IMG/VR virus record: IMGVR_UViG_3300017782_005987
Coordinates: 1 to 64,000 of that record
Length of the DNA: 64,000 nucleotides
Direction: 5' to 3' (one strand)
DNA from: a virus
A program made the position numbers and the translations under genes. Under the pieces are notes generated by a model that had not been told where the DNA came from, ran no database searches, and saw only the letters and a list, made by a program, of their open reading frames with translations. Shown here in pieces: positions 5,067 through 48,982 of the stretch (positions within the stretch are counted from its first letter, which is position 1; each line of letters begins with the position of its first letter).

Positions 5067-5246
5067 TTACTCGTTTTCTTTATCCATTTTAACACAGAAA
5101 CATTTAGAATCGGGATTATCAAAGCCGTATTCGGTTATAGCTACATGACAGCTAGACACCCAGTCATAAGTATCATGAACTACAGCTTTAACTTCGCTTG
5201 TATTAATCGAAAGTATACAAATCGCTGCTACGCTGCTAATTGACAT
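5067..5246 (-). CDS. Small secreted cysteine-containing protein (59 aa), unknown function
   Basis: The start is at 5246, inside the 3' end of the oxygenase gene (19-base overlap). The product begins with a hydrophobic stretch (MSISSVAAICILSI) that could be a signal peptide, then has TYDWVSSCHVAITEYGF and ends CFCVKMDKENE. Three cysteines lie in the mature part. Two other small proteins here (6495-6683 and 53626-53790) share the plan of a hydrophobic start, a central Cys and a Cys near the end, so they may be a family of small periplasmic proteins. Function is unknown. Confidence 0.55.
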   Translation of the reverse strand: MSISSVAAICILSINTSEVKAVVHDTYDWVSSCHVAITEYGFDNPDSKCFCVKMDKENE

Positions 5247-6304
5247 GGTCTACCTGCATCTAATCCCATCCACTTGCTCCACTCTGCATAGTAATGACGC
5301 ATACCAACTTCGTCATGGATTGTACTATTTTCATGACGTCCGTGTAGAATGTTCCTAGATTCGGTACCCTCTCTCATAGTAGTACCTTGACCAGCTACAC
5401 CAATAAGGTCTTCATGTAGGTTGCGACCGAAGGGTCCCCAAATAGAGTTGTGGTGTTTGATACGAGTTTGTCTTTCTTCTGGTGTATCTTTCTTTAATCC
5501 ATATCCTCTAAATTCAATAAGCACCTTATTAGGTCCAAGAGGCGTTACTGAGTCTGAACGATAGGCAGAACCACGAAGGTTAAAGTTATATCCTGGGAAG
5601 AGATCTACCATATACCACTGGTTGGGCGGTAGATTGGGAAAAGATAGTTCCCCGCGATCTTCAAACCCATCATACTCTTCATAATTAACAGTAAAGCTAG
5701 ACACGTTAACGTGACCATTATCAAAAGGAATATTTTTTCTAGCGAAATATTCATCGTTGAATCCTGACACTCGATTAAAATAATGCATAAAATCGTGATA
5801 GAACTCAGAGTTAGTATCATGCCATAATTTATAGTTTGTATCTATAACTGCTTTATGATAGTGAAATACTTCCATCTCTTCAGTATCAATAGCATCTGCA
5901 ATACAATCAAAAGCTCCAGCTGTCCATTCTTCAACACTTTGCGTTGGATTAGGATCTAGTGTTACCCACACCATACCTCCGTGCTTTACTTCACAATGTA
6001 ATCTAGGTTCTGATGTTACTATAGGAGCAGCAAAAGTACCAGATACCTGTTTAATATCATAGTTCCTATACGCTCTAACTTCTTCGTCATTGAAATTATA
6101 AACAATAATGGAAACTCCAGCAATAGATGATGTTCTGAAGTTGCCTTCATTTGGCATCTCTGACATATGACAAACAGGAACCCAAACTTTTGAAAAAATA
6201 TCTTCTTGTTCTTGTTTGTAAATATCAAAACTATTATAAATTTCACTACTAATAGCTTCTACTTTTGGTTTTGTTAACCAGGACTTATGATTTCTTGGCG
6301 CCAT
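5228..6304 (-). CDS. Rieske-type ring-hydroxylating oxygenase alpha-subunit-like protein lacking the Rieske ligands
   Basis: The 358-residue protein follows the layout of Rieske non-haem oxygenase alpha subunits. An N-terminal Rieske-like domain (IFSKVWVPVCHMSEMP, about 36-51; VSIIVYNFNDEEVRAYRN, about 64-81) precedes a catalytic domain with NYKLWHDTNSEFYHDFMH (157-174) and HEDLIGVAGQG (297-307), giving candidate iron ligands H170, H174 and D299. The CxH...CxxH pair that should bind the 2Fe-2S cluster after RAYRN is missing; only HCEVKHGG remains nearby. The His spacing is H-x3-H rather than the usual H-x4-H. I choose ATG 6304 for its AAAGGAGGT site. It may be a cluster-free oxygenase or a non-enzymatic relative. 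It lies right after the tmRNA gene. Confidence 0.7.
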   Translation of the reverse strand: MAPRNHKSWLTKPKVEAISSEIYNSFDIYKQEQEDIFSKVWVPVCHMSEMPNEGNFRTSSIAGVSIIVYNFNDEEVRAYRNYDIKQVSGTFAAPIVTSEPRLHCEVKHGGMVWVTLDPNPTQSVEEWTAGAFDCIADAIDTEEMEVFHYHKAVIDTNYKLWHDTNSEFYHDFMHYFNRVSGFNDEYFARKNIPFDNGHVNVSSFTVNYEEYDGFEDRGELSFPNLPPNQWYMVDLFPGYNFNLRGSAYRSDSVTPLGPNKVLIEFRGYGLKKDTPEERQTRIKHHNSIWGPFGRNLHEDLIGVAGQGTTMREGTESRNILHGRHENSTIHDEVGMRHYYAEWSKWMGLDAGRPCQLAA

Positions 6305-6317
6305 TTGTACCTCCTTT

Positions 6318-6493
6318 AAAAATGCCACTTTCTGTTGCTAGGCAGTGGCCGCCCCGTGAGATTATGCCGCTAAGCGGTAATCCTCGATTGCGAAATTATC
6401 ATTTGCAATTGTTGTTTTCTTGCGGTTAAGGTCGCTTGCGCACCTGTTTCTCGGTTTAGTTTTTACTACGTCTGTCGATCCTATTTCGCCCCC
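6318..6493 (-). ncRNA. ssrA: Permuted tmRNA, coding (mRNA-like) piece with tag ANDNFAIEDYRLAA
   Basis: Read on the minus strand this RNA starts GGGGGCGAAATAGGATCGAC, matching the tRNA-like 5' end of tmRNA. It then encodes a tag starting at the GCA resume codon (6404-6406) and ending LAA-type, ANDNFAIEDYRLAA, then TAA at 6362-6364. ANDN tags are typical of Alphaproteobacteria. The first seven bases pair fully with the 3' end of the acceptor piece at 6696-6735, including a G3-U70 wobble, the alanine-tRNA identity pair. A GCCACT/AGTGGC hairpin followed by five T residues (6318-6349) closes the 3' end. Gene order (acceptor first, coding second) shows circular permutation. Confidence 0.92.
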
Positions 6494-6494
6494 A

Positions 6495-6683
6495 TCATAA
6501 AGACACTGAGCCTTTTGGTTTACAAATATACTTAACACTTGTCCAATTTCCATCTAGAGGAATCTCTTCGTAAAGTTTTTTTGTTGCTTCACACGTGTTT
6601 TTATTATCAAACCACTGAACATCTTGAGTTCTACACTCAGAATTCATACAAGCTGTTAATAGTATATGCCAAATAATTTCCAT
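6495..6683 (-). CDS. Small Cys-containing protein encoded in the intervening segment of the permuted tmRNA
   Basis: The 62-codon ORF exactly fills the space between the acceptor piece (3' CCA at 6696) and the coding piece (5' G near 6493) of the permuted tmRNA. Its TGA stop abuts the coding-piece 5' end. An AAGGA site sits just before the ATG. The product starts with a short hydrophobic segment (MEIIWHILLTACM) and has four cysteines (ACMNSEC, NTCEATK, YICKPK), suggesting a small exported protein. Intervening segments in bacterial two-piece tmRNA genes are normally short and removed; an ORF there is unusual. Function unknown. Confidence 0.6.
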   Translation of the reverse strand: MEIIWHILLTACMNSECRTQDVQWFDNKNTCEATKKLYEEIPLDGNWTSVKYICKPKGSVSL

Positions 6684-6695
6684 TTAGTGTCCTTA

Positions 6696-6735
6696 TGGTG
6701 GAGGCGGCGGGTACTGCCCCCGCGTCCAGTCCGTT
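6696..6735 (-). ncRNA. ssrA: Permuted tmRNA, acceptor piece
   Basis: On the minus strand the segment contains a T-arm (GCGGG, loop GGCAGTA, CCCGC) followed by CGCCTCC, A and CCA. CGCCTCC pairs with GGGGGCG at the 5' end of the coding piece to rebuild an alanine-type acceptor stem. GGCAGTACCCGCCGCCTCCA resembles acceptor pieces of alphaproteobacterial tmRNA. It lies directly after the stop of the gene at 6740-7060, so it is probably co-transcribed with bS21 and its neighbours and cut out by tRNA-processing enzymes. Confidence 0.9.
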
Positions 6736-6739
6736 TATT

Positions 6740-7060
6740 CTACTGCTCCTCAGACGAAACAATATCTTTTTCTTTTGAAATAATCTTAGTAAACCAGTGA
6801 GATTCTTCTCCTAATTGTTCTTGTAGTTTAGAAGCAGACACTTTAGCTTTTGAATAAGAATCAAATTTAATAGGGTGTTGAACACCATCTATTTCGTCAG
6901 CCATGATTCCTATATCACTTGATTTCATGCTGTGTATTTCTACTATATAATACAATATTTTAGCTTTCTTAAATTCAGAAAAATTTATATCCTCTGTTTC
7001 AACCAGTATATAAACTCCTTCGGAATCTTTTTGTATACTGCTTTTTAGAGTATCTGTCAT
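6740..7060 (-). CDS. Hypothetical protein, 106 aa
   Basis: I do not recognise a family. The sequence is mixed alpha/beta (VYILVETEDINF; KILYYIVEIHSM) with an acidic C-terminal tail (KEKDIVSSEEQ) and no cysteines or membrane segments, so it is probably a soluble cytoplasmic protein. It sits two bases after the bS21 stop and its own stop is followed within about 5 bases by the tmRNA acceptor piece. One transcript therefore seems to carry a translation-related set: bS21, this protein and tmRNA. Confidence 0.6.
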   Translation of the reverse strand: MTDTLKSSIQKDSEGVYILVETEDINFSEFKKAKILYYIVEIHSMKSSDIGIMADEIDGVQHPIKFDSYSKAKVSASKLQEQLGEESHWFTKIISKEKDIVSSEEQ

Positions 7061-7062
7061 TA

Positions 7063-7260
7063 TTAATTTTCTTCTTCTTTTTTACGTTCCATTCTTCTTA
7101 TTCTTGCTACAGCTTCTTTGTGTTTTAATCTTCTTTTTTCACCTTTAGTCTGATGAAATCGTTTTTCTTTTAATTTTTTAAAAATACCTTCAGTATTAAG
7201 TTTTCTACTTAATGCTTTATAAGCTTTGCTTACATCATTATTTCTTACTTTTATGTACAT
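7063..7260 (-). CDS. rpsU: 30S ribosomal protein bS21
   Basis: The 65-residue protein is highly basic and collinear with bS21: IKVRNNDVSKAYKALSRKL at the start (bacterial consensus V.V.en.s.d.AlrrfKr), then EGIFKKLKEKRFHQTKGEKR and a long KHKEAVARIRRMERKK helix. bS21 binds the 30S platform near the anti-Shine-Dalgarno helix and affects initiation. Homologues are known in large marine phages, where they may replace host bS21 to favour phage mRNAs; that role here is inference. It is second in a minus-strand operon starting at 7511 and precedes the tmRNA. Confidence 0.88.
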   Translation of the reverse strand: MYIKVRNNDVSKAYKALSRKLNTEGIFKKLKEKRFHQTKGEKRRLKHKEAVARIRRMERKKEEEN

Positions 7261-24059: not shown

Positions 24060-24712
24060 TTTACAACTAATAATCCTATAAAATTATATGCTTTCCAAAA
24101 ACAATCAACTCTTTTAAAACCTATATCTTTAATTTCGTCTATTAAATTATTTATTCCTAATATATTCATAGCAGCTCTTAGTTCTTTTTCTTTATTAAGT
24201 ATCTCTTCGTGTGAAAAATATTTAGTTTTATAATCATAGTTAGAAAAAGTAAACACATCTTGTATTAGTGGATCTTCAGAATAAACTTTTTCACATAAAA
24301 TTAACGCCCCGTTTGTTATTAAAGATTCATATATTTCTTTCAGTATATTTTTTCTTTCATATGTTGTTAAAAACTGTAAAGTAAACATAGATAACATCAA
24401 TGAACTGTTTTTTTTAAATTTGTAATTTTTTAAGTCTTCAATTAAATATTGTATATCTGCGTCTTTCCAATGCTTGGAAAACCTTTCTTCTTTGTCTATT
24501 CCAATAAATGTAATATTTTTTGCCCAGTTTTCTTCTTTTAATTTTTTAAGTGTTCTACCTGTTGAACACCCTAAATCATATACTGTTGTATTATCTTGGA
24601 TAAAAAACCTGGACATAGTAATAATCATAGGCACAAGTTTGTCATAAGAAATAATACTTCTATTAATGTGTTGATCGAAATCATTTATATGGTCTGAAAA
24701 ACTAAAACGCAT
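24056..24712 (-). CDS. Class I SAM methyltransferase, CmoA-like
   Basis: The 218-residue protein has the SAM loop TVYDLGCSTGRTLKKL, the acidic ITFIGIDKEERF strand and SLMLSMFTLQFL, a layout near that of CmoA, whose motif is DLGCSLG and whose end resembles CFWKAYNFIGLLVVK here. A late NGALILCEKVYSED strand also matches CmoA. CmoA makes carboxy-SAM; whether this copy methylates or carboxymethylates is unknown. Within the operon it overlaps a radical SAM gene by 11 bases, so a role in target modification is plausible. Confidence 0.7.
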   Translation of the reverse strand: MRFSFSDHINDFDQHINRSIISYDKLVPMIITMSRFFIQDNTTVYDLGCSTGRTLKKLKEENWAKNITFIGIDKEERFSKHWKDADIQYLIEDLKNYKFKKNSSLMLSMFTLQFLTTYERKNILKEIYESLITNGALILCEKVYSEDPLIQDVFTFSNYDYKTKYFSHEEILNKEKELRAAMNILGINNLIDEIKDIGFKRVDCFWKAYNFIGLLVVK

Positions 24713-25616
24713 TACAATACCTACTCAATAAATTTATATAACCATTACAGCTATCTTTTAAATCTTTAACATGTCTATAGTGCTCAGTTAAACAATGTCC
24801 TTTCCAAGAACAGTTTTGACACACTGTTGAAAGGTTTCTTTTTTCTGTCCATGCCCACTGTTCAAAATTTGAATAATTAGAAAATTCTAAAAAATACTCT
24901 TTATCTTCTGAATCAAAATCTAAAACAGCATACTTTCCATTTGGAGTAATATAAATATGGTCATCTGAATAAGCATTGTACTCTTTTTTAATGCTTCTTT
25001 TTAACCTGTTTAAATTTTGAAATTCAAAACGTTTTTGTATAGGACTATCTATCCACTTTATGATAAATTCTTCAAAATTTTTATGAGTTACAGGTTGTTT
25101 ATTAGCTTGATTGATACTATACGGTTTTATTTCTACAGATATAATTGATTTACACGTATTTAACTGTTTAATCATATTATCAACATTCATTTTTAATACT
25201 TCTTGTGAAGCTAATATTAATACTGATAAAGGTTTAGGGCTCATTAACATATTATTATACACTAAACTTGACTTTTCTCTTGCTGAAAAATCATATGAGA
25301 CGGAAAGAGTGATGTCATCTTCGAAGAATCTATCGTCAAGCATAGAAAAATTAGTATTAATATTGATATAATCATTATAGTATTTGCGTATAACGGTTTT
25401 AATTTCTTCATAGTATGATTTTTTAAGCGCTCCAATTTCTCCCCCATATAAATCGACATGATCTATTTTTGGTATTTCAGATAGTAGTTTGTCTAGTTTT
25501 TTAGGATCAATTCTTTTTTGATCTCCAAGTTGTTCTGGAGTTAGATAACAGAAATCACATCTAAAATTACAAAAGTAACTAGGATTTATTGAGACTGAAA
25601 ACGGTTTATCCACCAT
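24702..25616 (-). CDS. Radical SAM protein with C-terminal Cys-rich (SPASM-like) region
   Basis: The 304-residue enzyme has the radical SAM cluster motif SYFCNFRCDFCYL (CX3CX2C at about 14-21) and VDLYGGEIG, the GGE-type SAM-binding strand. The C-terminal part has VCQNCSWKGHCLTEHY and a further Cys in DSCNGY, consistent with a shortened SPASM/twitch auxiliary-cluster domain. Such enzymes install thioether, C-C or epimerised linkages in peptides. It precedes the CmoA-like gene and follows the GNAT-like gene with a 31-base overlap. Target unknown. Confidence 0.85.
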   Translation of the reverse strand: MVDKPFSVSINPSYFCNFRCDFCYLTPEQLGDQKRIDPKKLDKLLSEIPKIDHVDLYGGEIGALKKSYYEEIKTVIRKYYNDYININTNFSMLDDRFFEDDITLSVSYDFSAREKSSLVYNNMLMSPKPLSVLILASQEVLKMNVDNMIKQLNTCKSIISVEIKPYSINQANKQPVTHKNFEEFIIKWIDSPIQKRFEFQNLNRLKRSIKKEYNAYSDDHIYITPNGKYAVLDFDSEDKEYFLEFSNYSNFEQWAWTEKRNLSTVCQNCSWKGHCLTEHYRHVKDLKDSCNGYINLLSRYCNAF

Positions 25617-26008
25617 CTATATTTAACTCCTTTAATTATTTCATATTCTTTTGGTTTAAATCCGAATTTTTCTAATAGTATATCAATTCTTTTATACTTG
25701 CTTAATCCCCATAAAGGATTTCCGTTTTTGGGGTGAACAGCTATTTTACCTAATTCTATAATAGCTTCTGTATGTTGGTATTTTTTATCTATTAACACTG
25801 TTTCTAAATAGTTACCTTTTTTATGTTTTATGATTGTATAGTAACCAATTGCTAGATTATCAAGATACAATATCTCAACTATTTCATTATCAATAAGATA
25901 TTTAAGATCATCTTTTTCATACATCTCATCTTTTTTCATATTATATGAAAGAGCTATTAATATATTTAAATCTTTTAGAGTCGCTTTTTTACACGTATAT
26001 TTTTTCAT
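25586..26008 (-). CDS. Putative GNAT-type N-acetyltransferase, 140 aa
   Basis: The layout suggests a GNAT fold: KKATLKDLNILIALSYNM (first strand and helices), VEILYLDNLAIGYYTI with the beta-bulge strand pair, LETVLIDKKYQ as strand 4, and a C-terminal LLEKFGFKPKEYEIIKG like the last GNAT helix and strand. The pyrophosphate-binding Q/RxxGxG/A loop is not seen, so acetyl-CoA binding is uncertain. It overlaps the radical SAM gene that follows. A modifying role on the shared target is inferred. Confidence 0.5.
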   Translation of the reverse strand: MKKYTCKKATLKDLNILIALSYNMKKDEMYEKDDLKYLIDNEIVEILYLDNLAIGYYTIIKHKKGNYLETVLIDKKYQHTEAIIELGKIAVHPKNGNPLWGLSKYKRIDILLEKFGFKPKEYEIIKGVKYRWWINRFQSQ

Positions 26009-26720
26009 TGCCTGTTTTTGGTATTATTTTTGCGTCCCAAGAAATGCTTACCCTGGGCATGTTACTTATGTTTGGTTCTACTTCATGCCATATATAAGAA
26101 GGGAATATTACAAATTTACCTATTTCTGGTTTAATAGAATAAGTTACTTTACTAGTGTTCTTATCAGAAGGGACATGGTAATCTACATAATCGCCATATA
26201 AATCTTTATTACCGTATAACCAATCTTGAGCATAATATGCCATCCCTGTTGCTTTAAACTTAACTTTTTCAAGAGCAATTCCTTTTTTGATGAGATTTTC
26301 TAAATCTACATAACCAAAATCCATCATATTAGCATTGCCTCTGGGATCTATCATTAGTAAATGAGCATCACTGTCGTTTAACCATAAAGTTCCAGAAATA
26401 TGATTTCCGGGATGGTTATGAATACCTACATTCATACCTTTTTGTAAATACTGTGGCCAAGCATATACTTTTAAATCATAATGATTTTCTATGTTTAATA
26501 TCTCTTTTATATATTCTTTTATATAAGGTACTAAATGATTTTTGCGAAACTTTTGAATTGACTCACACTCTAAAGTAAATAGATTTAAAACATCGCATTT
26601 ATCTTCCTTATTATAGCCCTCTGTTGTTACATCTAAAAATAGTTGTTTTGCTAATTCTTTATCTATATAACCAGTCATTATGGTTGTAGGCCATAGCTTA
26701 GTATAATTAAGCTTCTTCAT
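25989..26720 (-). CDS. 2OG-Fe(II) oxygenase family protein (2OG-FeII_Oxy_5-like)
   Basis: The 243-residue protein reads LWPTTIMTGYI at the start, YAWPQYLQKGMNVGIHNHPG with the first iron ligand, SGTLWLNDSDAHLLMIDPRG, then KPEIGKFVIFPSYIWHEVEP with the distal His and PRVSISWDAKI with the 2OG-binding Arg. This is the pattern of the phage and bacterial putative 2OG-Fe(II) oxygenase family (WxxxxxxGxxxxxH-H-p, SGxxYL, PxxGxLxxFPxxxxHxVxP). It is one of three oxygenase-like genes in the operon. The target is not known. Confidence 0.8.
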   Translation of the reverse strand: MKKLNYTKLWPTTIMTGYIDKELAKQLFLDVTTEGYNKEDKCDVLNLFTLECESIQKFRKNHLVPYIKEYIKEILNIENHYDLKVYAWPQYLQKGMNVGIHNHPGNHISGTLWLNDSDAHLLMIDPRGNANMMDFGYVDLENLIKKGIALEKVKFKATGMAYYAQDWLYGNKDLYGDYVDYHVPSDKNTSKVTYSIKPEIGKFVIFPSYIWHEVEPNISNMPRVSISWDAKIIPKTGNEKIYV

Positions 26721-27774
26721 TTATATACTCCGTTACTTTCTCTTTTAATCCACATATTTCTATAATGTCTGGAGCAAGAGATTTCATTTTTCTACAATGT
26801 GTTTCAGTCAATTTTAGTCTTTTTAAATCACTAATAGTTTTTCTACATCCATTACAGATTTTAAACATAGGACAAGTGAAACAAGATTTTTTTAAAGATA
26901 ATAATTCAATAGAACTCTGTAGAGGAGTTTCTACTTTATCTTGTTTCATTTCTTTATTAAAATCTATTTCATACTCTTTATCATCTCCAAACGCTCCACA
27001 AGAATAATAGTCTCCGCCAGGATTTAAATTTCTAATATTTTCATCACACTTTCGATTTTGAGGACAAGTAGTATTAGAAGAAAATCTCTTTAACAATTGA
27101 GTAGTATTATATTCCCAATCTGCTAATCCTTGTTTATATATTTTAAGATAGATTTCATATATATCTGCTAAAAGATAAGTATAGTTTTCTAATCCCATTT
27201 TAATTCCATTAAGAAATTTTATTTCTGGGCCGCTTGCGACAGCATAGTTTAGTTTACACACTACTCCCATTTCTTTAGCTAAGAGTACATTATCTATTGC
27301 TCTGTCTTCATTTTCTTTTGTGATTACGGAAATAAAATCAGGTCTGTAACCTACAAGATCTAACATTTTATCTGAAACATTCCAAAAATCTTTTTCACTA
27401 AATTCTGTAAAATCTCCTTTTAATCTGCCTCCCCCATATTGAAAAGAAGTACAAACTCCTACTCTAGGGTGTTGAAAAAGAGATAACCATTTAGATGGTT
27501 TAGTATAAAAAGGCCATAAATTAGTTGTTAAAGATATTGTAGTATCCAAATTATTATCTTCTAAATATTTAATTATTTTCCAATAGTAACTAGGTTTCAT
27601 CATTAAGGGATCACCACCATTCACAATAATAGTATTAGTGTGTGGAAACCTTTTTAAAAAAGTAAATATTTTTTTGTGTTCCAGTTCGACAGATTTAGAA
27701 TCTGCAATTTTTGTACTAGAACAGAAAGTACATTTAAAATTGCAACGTTCTGTCGGTTTAATTATGAGTTCCAT
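26707..27774 (-). CDS. Radical SAM/SPASM protein
   Basis: The 355-residue enzyme starts with KPTERCNFKCTFCSSTK (CX3CX2C at about 11-18), then IIVNGGDPLMMKPSYY (GGDP SAM motif). The C-terminal SPASM region has NTTCPQNRKCDENI, DYYSCGAF, KKSCFTCPMFKICNGC and THCRKM, enough cysteines for one or two auxiliary 4Fe-4S clusters. This is the architecture of peptide-modifying maturases. It overlaps the neighbouring radical SAM gene by 17 bases and the oxygenase by 14, so the three are likely expressed together. Confidence 0.88.
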   Translation of the reverse strand: MELIIKPTERCNFKCTFCSSTKIADSKSVELEHKKIFTFLKRFPHTNTIIVNGGDPLMMKPSYYWKIIKYLEDNNLDTTISLTTNLWPFYTKPSKWLSLFQHPRVGVCTSFQYGGGRLKGDFTEFSEKDFWNVSDKMLDLVGYRPDFISVITKENEDRAIDNVLLAKEMGVVCKLNYAVASGPEIKFLNGIKMGLENYTYLLADIYEIYLKIYKQGLADWEYNTTQLLKRFSSNTTCPQNRKCDENIRNLNPGGDYYSCGAFGDDKEYEIDFNKEMKQDKVETPLQSSIELLSLKKSCFTCPMFKICNGCRKTISDLKRLKLTETHCRKMKSLAPDIIEICGLKEKVTEYINEEA

Positions 27775-28747
27775 CTAACCACTCCCAATAATCTTTAATC
27801 CAGCAATGTTCCATAGTACTTTTTTCTGGCAAAATATGATTTTCTTGAAAACAACCTAATCCACACCTACTAAAATGATCACACATTAAGCAATTAAAGC
27901 CTTCTATCCATTTAGCTTCCATTTTATCTCTACTATCATGGGCTAATGCTCTATAGTTGCCTCCAACTAGTAAATTACAGTGACCTATTTCTCCATCAGC
28001 AGCTATTACTTTTGTTCTTTGACAAGTTAAATTTTTCTTAGTTTCTCCAGATAAATACTTGTTTATTGGTGCTACTTTAGGATAATTACTAGACAAATAC
28101 TTAAATATGTTTAATAGTTCTACGTCTGTAGGACAGTTTATACTAGCGTTTTTTTCAGGAGTATAATAGTCAAAGTATACATTAAAATGTTCGTACAGAT
28201 AATCAAAACCTATTATTTCATCAGATAAGAATTTATAAATGTTAGGAGCAGTTAATATTATATTTACCGTAGTGATATACTCTTTGAAGTATTTAACATT
28301 ACCCATAAACTGTTCAAATTGCTTAGTATTAAAGCGGCCTGCAGGGTCGTAACTAACTGCTAGTTTGATATTCAATCTATCTAGTATTTGTTTTACTCTA
28401 TCTCTGTTACTCCATACCATATTGGAGGTTATTAGAAATTCACTGTTTTCAAATGATTGCTGACATCTAAGAATTAAATCTTCAATTTTATTCAAAATTT
28501 GATTTGAAATCTGATCACTCAAAATCTCTCCGCCCATAAAATGAAATGAAAATTGTTCTTTATTTTGTGAGCGTAAGTCTTCGTAGACGCTTTTTATCGC
28601 AAAGTATTTTTCTGGGATAGATTCTACACCCTCAAATGAATTATGATTTTGAGAACAAAAACTACACGCAAGATTACAGTGTTCAAACAGTGTTACTATA
28701 ACCTCACCTAGAGTAGACGCTTTTTTATCTAAAATTGTATTATACAT
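27758..28747 (-). CDS. Radical SAM/SPASM protein
   Basis: The 329-residue enzyme has LFEHCNLACSFCSQNH (CX3CX2C at about 24-31), FHFMGGEILS (GGE) and ITSNMVW. The C-terminal SPASM segment has NLTCQRTKVIAADGEIGHCN and FNCLMCDHFSRCGLGCFQEN followed by EHCWIKDYW. It resembles the radical SAM gene that follows in cluster arrangement, and both could have arisen by duplication, but the sequences have diverged. It overlaps the unknown gene upstream by eight bases. Confidence 0.88.
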   Translation of the reverse strand: MYNTILDKKASTLGEVIVTLFEHCNLACSFCSQNHNSFEGVESIPEKYFAIKSVYEDLRSQNKEQFSFHFMGGEILSDQISNQILNKIEDLILRCQQSFENSEFLITSNMVWSNRDRVKQILDRLNIKLAVSYDPAGRFNTKQFEQFMGNVKYFKEYITTVNIILTAPNIYKFLSDEIIGFDYLYEHFNVYFDYYTPEKNASINCPTDVELLNIFKYLSSNYPKVAPINKYLSGETKKNLTCQRTKVIAADGEIGHCNLLVGGNYRALAHDSRDKMEAKWIEGFNCLMCDHFSRCGLGCFQENHILPEKSTMEHCWIKDYWEWLDGTHN

Positions 28748-47499: not shown

Positions 47500-48029
47500 T
47501 TGATTTTATTGATAATAGAGATATTTATATTGTATCATCAGGAGTTCCTTTAGACGGAGTTGTCATTGAAGGTGCTCCTGTTTTAGTTAGATTAAACTCT
47601 AGTCGTCGTTGGGGAGACTGTGATATTTGGTTTAACAACCAGTCACAAGATCCTAAATTTCAACACGATTCGCAGGGATCAGGAGGAGAGCGTTTTATTA
47701 TACGTGCTAATGGGGATAATAAAGGTGCAAATATGAGACGTAATTTTCCAACTGAGTGGGCTCATACCTACTTTTGGCCTGTAGAAGATTGGGAAATTAT
47801 GACAGAAAAAATGCAAGTACCTAGACCTTTAACAGGTACTATTGCTGCTTATTGGTTTCATAAATACACTACGTCAAAACTATTTTTAATAAACTATGAT
47901 TTTTATGAAACCAATAAAAGACATACTGTAAGAAATATACCACAACCTGCTCCTGTACATAAACCTTGGCTAGATAAAGCATACTTAGAAACTTTAGATA
48001 GGATTGAATATTCATGGATAACACCTTAA
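47472..48029 (+). CDS. Putative GT29-like (sialyltransferase-related) glycosyltransferase
   Basis: The 185-residue protein has VLVRLNSSRRWGDCDIWFNN, like the V-x-R-x-N...G-x-x-T/D segment of GT29-type enzymes, and VPRPLTGTIAAYWFHKYTTS followed by FLINYDFYE, like the PSTG...GFD-x-Y motif. This is short and diverged. Its neighbours are a GT8-like transferase and a radical SAM protein. I consider GT29-like the best guess; a diverged sugar-binding protein is also possible. Confidence 0.5.
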   Translation: MERLLLSEIIDFIDNRDIYIVSSGVPLDGVVIEGAPVLVRLNSSRRWGDCDIWFNNQSQDPKFQHDSQGSGGERFIIRANGDNKGANMRRNFPTEWAHTYFWPVEDWEIMTEKMQVPRPLTGTIAAYWFHKYTTSKLFLINYDFYETNKRHTVRNIPQPAPVHKPWLDKAYLETLDRIEYSWITP

Positions 48030-48982
48030 AACACGCATCTGTAGAAATTAATGGTGGATGTAACTACGCATGTCCGATGTGTCCTCAAACAGACGGTAGA
48101 GAAAAGTCCTTTCTTAAAAAATTACCTTTAGATACTTATCGCGATATTGTTTCTCAATTAGTAGAATTAGGGTGTAAGGAAATAAACCTTCAAGGAAGCG
48201 GAGAGCCTCTTTTAAATCGTAATATAGACGAGTATATTAGTTATGCTTTTAGTAAAGGTATAGACTGTAATATTGTTAGTAATGGGTTTAATTTAGATGA
48301 AACTATGTCTGAAAAACTAGTTCAGGCTGGTCTAAAAAATATTAGAGTTAGTGTAATTGGTTATAATCCTACTCAATATACTCATTGGATGAGTAAAGAT
48401 GCTTTTTCTACTGTTTACAGACAAGTTCATAGATTTATGCAAATTGCAAAAGCTTCTTATACTACGATTTCTTCTTATCATTTAATCTTAGATAATGATA
48501 GAATTGAGCATGAAATTAGTGAATACCGTCAAAATTGGATAGAACCTTTAGGAATTGACGCTGAAATTTGGCAGATGCACAATTGGGGCGGTCAGTATGA
48601 TACTCCATATGAAAGAGACAAAAAAGAAAAAAGATCTTGTGGTCGTCCTTTTGCACCTTATTTGAATGTAAGAGCAGGAGGTGTAGATGGTAAACATGCA
48701 GCAGTAGTTCCTTGTTGTTATGTTTTAGGACAAGATTCAAAAGCTGTATTAGGTCACTTAGAAGATCAAACTATTGTTGAAATTTGGAACTCCCCTGAGT
48801 ATAATAGTTTAAGGCAAGCACATAAAGAAAAACGTTTTGATGATATTGATTATTGTAAAGATTGTGATCAACTTTATGAAGCTCCAGATTCTTTAGTATG
48901 GTCTAATATTAAAGGTAAAGCTTATGGACAACATAAAATAGATAAATCATTTGATTTTAGGGATTATATAAAAAATGGTTAG
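48014..48982 (+). CDS. Radical SAM protein with SPASM-type C-terminus
   Basis: The 322-residue enzyme has NGGCNYACPMCPQTDG (CX3CX2C at about 14-21), INLQGSGEPLLNR (the GGEP-equivalent GSGEP) and IVSNGFN. The C-terminus has AAVVPCCYVLGQ, GHLEDQTIVEIWNSPEYNSL and IDYCKDCDQLYEA, a SPASM region as in enzymes modifying peptides or sugars. It overlaps the glycosyltransferase-like and methyltransferase genes on either side, so it likely works on the same product. It is separate from the four radical SAM genes at 24-32 kb. Confidence 0.85.
   Translation: MDNTLKHASVEINGGCNYACPMCPQTDGREKSFLKKLPLDTYRDIVSQLVELGCKEINLQGSGEPLLNRNIDEYISYAFSKGIDCNIVSNGFNLDETMSEKLVQAGLKNIRVSVIGYNPTQYTHWMSKDAFSTVYRQVHRFMQIAKASYTTISSYHLILDNDRIEHEISEYRQNWIEPLGIDAEIWQMHNWGGQYDTPYERDKKEKRSCGRPFAPYLNVRAGGVDGKHAAVVPCCYVLGQDSKAVLGHLEDQTIVEIWNSPEYNSLRQAHKEKRFDDIDYCKDCDQLYEAPDSLVWSNIKGKAYGQHKIDKSFDFRDYIKNG

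Follow-up and report, generated by a model that had tools for sequence, protein, structure and literature searches.

The standard-form tmRNAs of the mycobacteriophage Bxz1 group and Bacillus phage G are one-piece genes without an IVS, the stretch that in a permuted gene lies between the CCA of the acceptor piece and G1 of the coding piece. Like the locus described here, they are phage-encoded (PMC4131195). Two-piece, circularly permuted tmRNAs are known from Methylophilales phage Melnitz and from pelagimyophages, and 53 two-piece calls among 18,146 phage genomes are given in the same report (PMC9004378). Alphaproteobacterial permuted tmRNAs (RF01849, RF04321; Caulobacter, Orientia) share gene order, acceptor stem, and tag type with our locus, but the sampled bacterial IVSs are short and ORF-less. 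Cleavage of the precursor has been demonstrated for the Orientia permuted tmRNA (PMC7335160). A 2025 tmRNA database lists 79 phage sequences and records one IVS that contains a tRNA and another that contains a repeat (PMC11915505). These two cases, and tmRNA genes with a group I intron and a homing-endonuclease gene, resemble our locus in having extra genetic material within the tmRNA gene. At our locus, in contrast, the carrier is the discarded IVS and the cargo consists of small ordinary proteins; no intron or endonuclease match was found for this cargo.

We analyzed a 64,000-nucleotide stretch of DNA from a marine phage, positions 1 to 64,000 of IMG/VR record IMGVR_UViG_3300017782_005987, which we call the window. 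The Melnitz tmRNA is like that of the window in being phage-borne, permuted, and of the alpha type. In addition, a relative of the 62-codon gene described below lies directly upstream of the Melnitz tmRNA, and the 142-nt Melnitz IVS contains a 54-aa ORF that belongs to a different family and lies unannotated beneath the tmRNA annotation. No IVS gene is mentioned in the accessible tmRNA text of the Melnitz paper (PMC9004378). The two loci differ in that a glutamine riboswitch follows the Melnitz tmRNA, whereas an Rfam search of the window gave no such riboswitch (RF01739). We note that the riboswitch also directly follows the tmRNA in L322 (778-828) and is present in L177 (3601-3649).

Judging from sequence, we propose with a probability of about 0.8 that the window encodes a permuted tmRNA whose IVS is a slot for small genes, and that paired IVS ends make this slot tolerant of its cargo. 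The tmRNA itself belongs to a published kind; the nested-gene arrangement is new. We found no report of a protein gene or ORF in a tmRNA IVS in the searchable, mainly non-subscription literature or in the accessible text of the tmRNA database.

Results

A predicted permuted tmRNA on the minus strand

The minus strand at approximately 6797-6321 is identified as a permuted tmRNA by two covariance models, both curated, with scores that exceed the respective gathering values by more than 50 bits. RF04321 (permuted tmRNA) matched 6760-6362 with 105.1 bits (gathering 47, E 1.9e-19), and RF01849 (alpha_tmRNA) matched 6797-6321 with 104.1 bits (gathering 50, E 2.3e-27). The RF01849 alignment spans the full model, and a hairpin is seen at the tmRNA 3′ end. 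At least 15 ORF-bearing relatives likewise exceed the Rfam cut-offs. An ARAGORN run on the window did not report the tmRNA. The parts of the locus are as follows.

6696..6760, minus strand: tmRNA acceptor piece (RF04321 and RF01849 alignments, sequence; 5′ end model-based)
6723-6707, minus strand: T arm of the acceptor piece (RF04321 and RF01849 alignments, sequence)
6706-6700, minus strand: acceptor 3′ strand CGCCUCC (model alignments, sequence)
6699-6696, minus strand: encoded ACCA, with CCA at 6698-6696, directly after the acceptor 3′ strand (model alignments, sequence)
6494..6695, minus strand: IVS, 202 nt, between CCA and G1; missing from the mature tmRNA by homology
6321..6493, minus strand: tmRNA coding piece (RF01849, sequence; 3′ end model-based, terminal hairpin GCCACU...AGUGGC)
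6493-6487, minus strand: acceptor 5′ strand GGGGGCG, G1 at 6493 (RF01849, sequence)
6362..6406, minus strand: tag reading frame ANDNFAIEDYRLAA-stop (sequence, models, tmRNA comparison)

The gene order is permuted: the acceptor piece, ending at 6696, precedes the coding piece, which begins at 6493. All seven acceptor-stem pairs, G3-U70 included, form across the IVS (GGGGGCG/CGCCUCC). In relatives, the stem changes compensatorily while G3-U70 is invariant (GGGAGCG/CGCTTCC, GGGGTCG/CGACTCC, GGGGCCG/CGGCTCC, GGGGGTG/CACCTCC, and GGGGATG/CATCTCC). The tag frame has an alanine resume codon and ends in AA before its stop. When cofolded alone, the two pieces are little more stable than shuffles (z -1.4), and the tmRNA assignment therefore rests on the models and on covariation. 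From these sequence criteria, the locus appears to be a complete phage-encoded circularly permuted tmRNA. A tmRNA interrupted by a group I intron was rejected: the T arm is uninterrupted, there is no intron-family match, and neither Pfam nor PHROGs gave a match for the ORF.

An earlier note, made from the sequence without database searches, had read this DNA as a circularly permuted two-piece tmRNA with the acceptor piece first, seven acceptor-stem pairs with G3-U70, and an alpha-type tag, here placed at 6406-6362. Each of these points agrees with our analysis, and the search it named as a check, with the alphaproteobacterial tmRNA model, gave the full-length RF01849 match above. Its attribution to a phage is likewise supported, by tail-fiber and baseplate-type genes, 9 tRNAs, and the IMG/VR virus record. 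The span it gave, 6318-6735, is right to within approximately 60 nt, but its reading overlooked both the coding gene at 6683-6495 inside the IVS and the helix formed by the IVS ends.

The IVS contains a conserved 62-codon gene

An ORF fills nearly all of the 202-nt IVS, starting 12 nt past the CCA and ending with a stop codon 1 nt before G1.

6495..6683, minus strand: nested 62-codon gene of the MEIIWHILLTAC... family (55 related loci, dN/dS, AlphaFold2 fold)
6690..6694, minus strand: Shine-Dalgarno (SD) sequence AAGGA of the nested gene, within the IVS helix (sequence, fold)

The dN/dS of the nested ORF is 0.19-0.21 in frame, as against 0.71 and 1.23 for the alternative frames, which indicates that the gene is under purifying selection, i.e., that it is real coding cargo. 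AlphaFold2 predicts a beta-beta-alpha-beta protein with a mean pLDDT of 92.6, except for the last residues; these low-confidence residues are those encoded by the IVS helix strand. Pfam, PHROGs, and PDB searches gave no function for the protein, which structurally matches uncharacterised phage proteins best, with E values of 0.009 or worse.

Relatives of the gene were listed at 55 or more phage loci in our IMG/VR scan, and at least 13 distinct sequences among the matches listed hold a relative in the same tmRNA slot. Outside this slot, relatives directly follow a tRNA gene or lie between two of them, adjoin the tmRNA (on its upstream side in Melnitz and L018, on its downstream side in L008), or follow a Rieske gene. 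We note that where relatives immediately follow a phage tRNA gene or are flanked by two (L010, L013, L016, L030, L033, L036, L037, L043, L050, L054, and L055), they have an SD close behind the tRNA CCA, like the tmRNA slot. In L005, L006, L026, and L126 the gene is retained just after the Rieske gene, and a short-IVS tmRNA is seen on the same contig in L005, L006, and L126. The family tree forces at least three changes into or out of the IVS; it is poorly resolved and does not allow gains to be counted. A DNA search of the locus among annotated phages gave a 38-nt match only.

Phage IVSs carry different small genes

We found phage and bacterial permuted tmRNAs with the same motif. The median IVS length is 81 nt in phages (247 distinct permuted tmRNAs among the matches listed) versus 30 nt in bacteria (n=110). 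The 110 sampled bacterial IVSs are short and without such ORFs; the five that exceed 150 nt apparently reflect false matching of the acceptor. Among the listed phage matches with an IVS of at least 150 nt, 41 of 53 contain an ORF longer than in 95% of dinucleotide shuffles. Clustering of the ORFs on their in-IVS part gave many singletons and 15 groups of at least two members; one group consists of two overlapping predictions on a single contig, and hence we count at least 14 independent groups. Seven further IVS-ORF families have dN/dS values of 0.16-0.32. We discarded the 0.62 obtained for one 14-member cluster as an artefact of shared coding-piece sequence, the trimmed families giving 0.24-0.27. 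Among the encoded cargo are several short proteins of membrane type and a DUF2061-like protein, which falls just under the Pfam cut-off. Some of the IMG/VR contigs are incomplete and some contain bacterial DNA.

Comparison of mature tmRNAs, from which the IVS is excluded, separates the RNA from its cargo. The mature tmRNA of the window shares 99% identity with that of L002, which has the same ORF. Its identity is 88.6% with the tmRNA of L348, where the 29-nt IVS is empty, 85% with that of L112, which carries an unrelated 65-aa ORF, and 88% across 152 nt with the one in L101, which carries another ORF. Like tmRNAs with differing cargo are the most direct evidence that the IVS may act as a gene slot.

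The stop codon lies 1 nt from G1 in 20 of 50 significant IVS ORFs, and some ORFs overlap the coding piece (offsets -13 to -42). Among 46 ORF-bearing IVSs, the SD is in the helix in 18, after the helix in 16, and 12 have no SD-like motif.

Most cultured alphaproteobacterial phages examined have a permuted tmRNA without a convincing IVS ORF. The permuted tmRNAs of cultured Mesorhizobium, Ruegeria, Phaeobacter, Rhodobacter, Erythrobacter, and Sinorhizobium phages (L437-L444, L446, L448) are mostly unannotated, and the IVS of Sinorhizobium phage Phosso measures 410 nt. Caulobacter phage CcrBL9 (L445) has an acceptor-like tmRNA sequence with the coding piece absent, which could be a decayed or unusual tmRNA.

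The two ends of the IVS pair

In the predicted fold of the precursor, the IVS ends pair with each other and lengthen the acceptor stem.

6686..6697, minus strand: 5′ strand of the IVS-terminal helix, C75 A76 plus UAAGGACACU (fold, covariation)
6496..6507, minus strand: 3′ strand of the IVS-terminal helix, AGUGUCUUUAUG, also the last codons of the ORF (fold, covariation, family alignment)

We defined the helix register as position i past CCA pairing with position -(4+i) before G1. In this register, at least seven of eight positions are paired in 91% of 217 dereplicated phages among the matches listed, compared with 0-8% in slid registers. Every position shows several compensatory pair types above the shuffled expectation. 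The helix occurs in about 38% of sampled bacteria and is kept in 45 of 46 ORF-bearing IVSs. Its predicted stability is approximately -14.5 kcal/mol, or -31.7 kcal/mol when the acceptor stem is included. We found no description of an IVS processing helix in permuted tmRNA precursors in the searchable, mainly non-subscription literature.

In the window, the helix contains both the SD of the nested ORF and its last codons and stop. All 13 in-slot family members finish in TCTTTATGAT, even though serine and leucine have six codons each and synonymous choice is free; hence this one stretch is under constraint as RNA and as protein alike. We considered and rejected the TGAT before G1 as an ORF stop signal, as it is frequent without ORFs (153 of 191 phages versus 24 of 106 bacteria). 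It is better explained by complementarity to ACCA, with a single C-A mismatch.

Neighboring genes and host

The tmRNA lies in a co-directional series (7511 to 5228) in the order orf83, bS21, orf106, tmRNA with nested gene, and Rieske oxygenase.

7063..7260, minus strand: phage bS21, upstream of the tmRNA (PF01165, 50.5 bits)
6740..7060, minus strand: upstream ORF, 106 aa, its stop codon (6740-6742) inside the predicted acceptor piece (sequence)
5228..6304, minus strand: Rieske/ring-hydroxylating oxygenase, directly after the tmRNA, 73% identical to MsmA of phage HMO-2011

A promoter-like site is present at 7624-7596 (11/12 match) and a terminator-like stem at 5042-5016, past the Rieske gene. 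It is plausible from this arrangement that the tmRNA and bS21 share one transcript. Because the 106-aa ORF stops within the acceptor piece, translated frames touch the tmRNA on its 5′ side too.

The earlier note took the tag as a strong host hint. This is too strong, since Melnitz has an alpha-type permuted tmRNA and infects OM43 (PMC9004378). The exact tag ANDNFAIEDYRLAA matched phages only, with none among the 110 bacterial tmRNAs sampled. MsmA of HMO-2011, a SAR116 phage, is a methanesulfonate monooxygenase alpha subunit, and the 73% match to it is a separate hint that the host may be alphaproteobacterial. Of 228 phage tmRNA loci among the matches listed, 17 have a Rieske homologue no more than 3 kb from the tmRNA; no tmRNA motif was found around msmA of HMO-2011. 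Elsewhere, the window has several radical SAM genes (24702-28747, minus strand, and 48014-48982, plus strand), with three clustered on the minus strand, as well as glycosyltransferase genes.

Discussion

By analogy with known two-piece tmRNAs, the precursor would be cut on both sides of the IVS, by RNase P at G1 and by a 3′ processing nuclease at the CCA. The released pieces would then pair into a tmRNA that could be charged with alanine, presumably by the alanyl-tRNA synthetase of the host, and the phage tmRNA together with host SmpB would rescue ribosomes that stall in the infected cell. The 64.5-kb record, probably a fragment, was searched for an SmpB gene and gave none; the dependence on host SmpB is therefore an assumption. 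The cargo may be translated from the precursor or from the freed IVS. We envision the IVS as a slot for a small translated gene whose RBS and stop sit at the extreme IVS ends. The slot would tolerate cargo because the paired ends hold the acceptor and coding halves together, whatever lies between them.

Since SD, stop, and cleavage site coincide, mutual control of translation and maturation is an attractive addition to this anatomy. The precursor would be either mRNA or tmRNA precursor: the helix would hide the SD and stop, and a ribosome on the ORF would open the helix and cover G1, making translation and maturation mutually exclusive and letting tmRNA supply track ribosome availability. The SD inside the helix (in the window and 18 of 46 IVSs), the stop 1 nt from G1, the helix stability, and the shared TCTTTATGAT ending of all 13 in-slot members are consistent with this. 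However, the SD lies after the helix or is missing in the remaining IVSs (16 and 12 of 46), and empty IVSs retain the helix, which hence did not evolve for the ORF. Some coupling of ORF translation to tmRNA maturation is plausible; we consider mutual exclusion unlikely, and are equally hesitant, if not slightly more so, about a two-state precursor in which ORF translation opens the half-joining helix and rescue RNA is made only without ribosome loading on the ORF. We prefer a tolerant cargo site made safe by the helix.

The remaining alternatives concern what the tmRNA does and whether the ORF is a gene at all. The phage tmRNA might titrate host SmpB or alter tagging, a role that has been suggested for the DS6A form, which lacks a tag. 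A phage form with only the tRNA-like domain inhibits tmRNA (PMC4131195, citing Mao 2009), and the missing SmpB gene would also fit such a decoy. A decoy needs no tag, so the full tag frame with ANDN...LAA ends, maintained across phages along with G3-U70 and CCA, makes this role improbable. Publication of marine-phage permuted tmRNAs (PMC9004378) would suit an ordinary host-derived phage tmRNA with nothing further to it, which we find very improbable given the short, ORF-less bacterial IVSs in our sample and a tag matched there by phages only. Finally, the IVS could be a mere spacer and the nested ORF a chance frame or decayed insertion, as the IVS ORFs that continue into the coding piece might suggest; frame-specific purifying selection, the 55 or more related loci, free-standing genes among them, and a confident predicted fold leave this hardly credible. 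The cargo-tolerant gene slot accounts for these observations best in our judgment.

These results suggest that a spacer thrown away by a maturing non-coding RNA can be a genuine protein gene, and that phages have reused the same spot in the IVS many times with different cargo. The IVS is thus a place to seek overlooked small phage proteins, one of which is hidden by the Melnitz tmRNA annotation. Our analysis also predicts a processing helix for permuted tmRNA precursors. If the two-state reading were true, the locus would be a built-in sensor of translation capacity with exchangeable coding cargo. It may offer a simple system for asking how a single RNA acts as both mRNA and tmRNA precursor.
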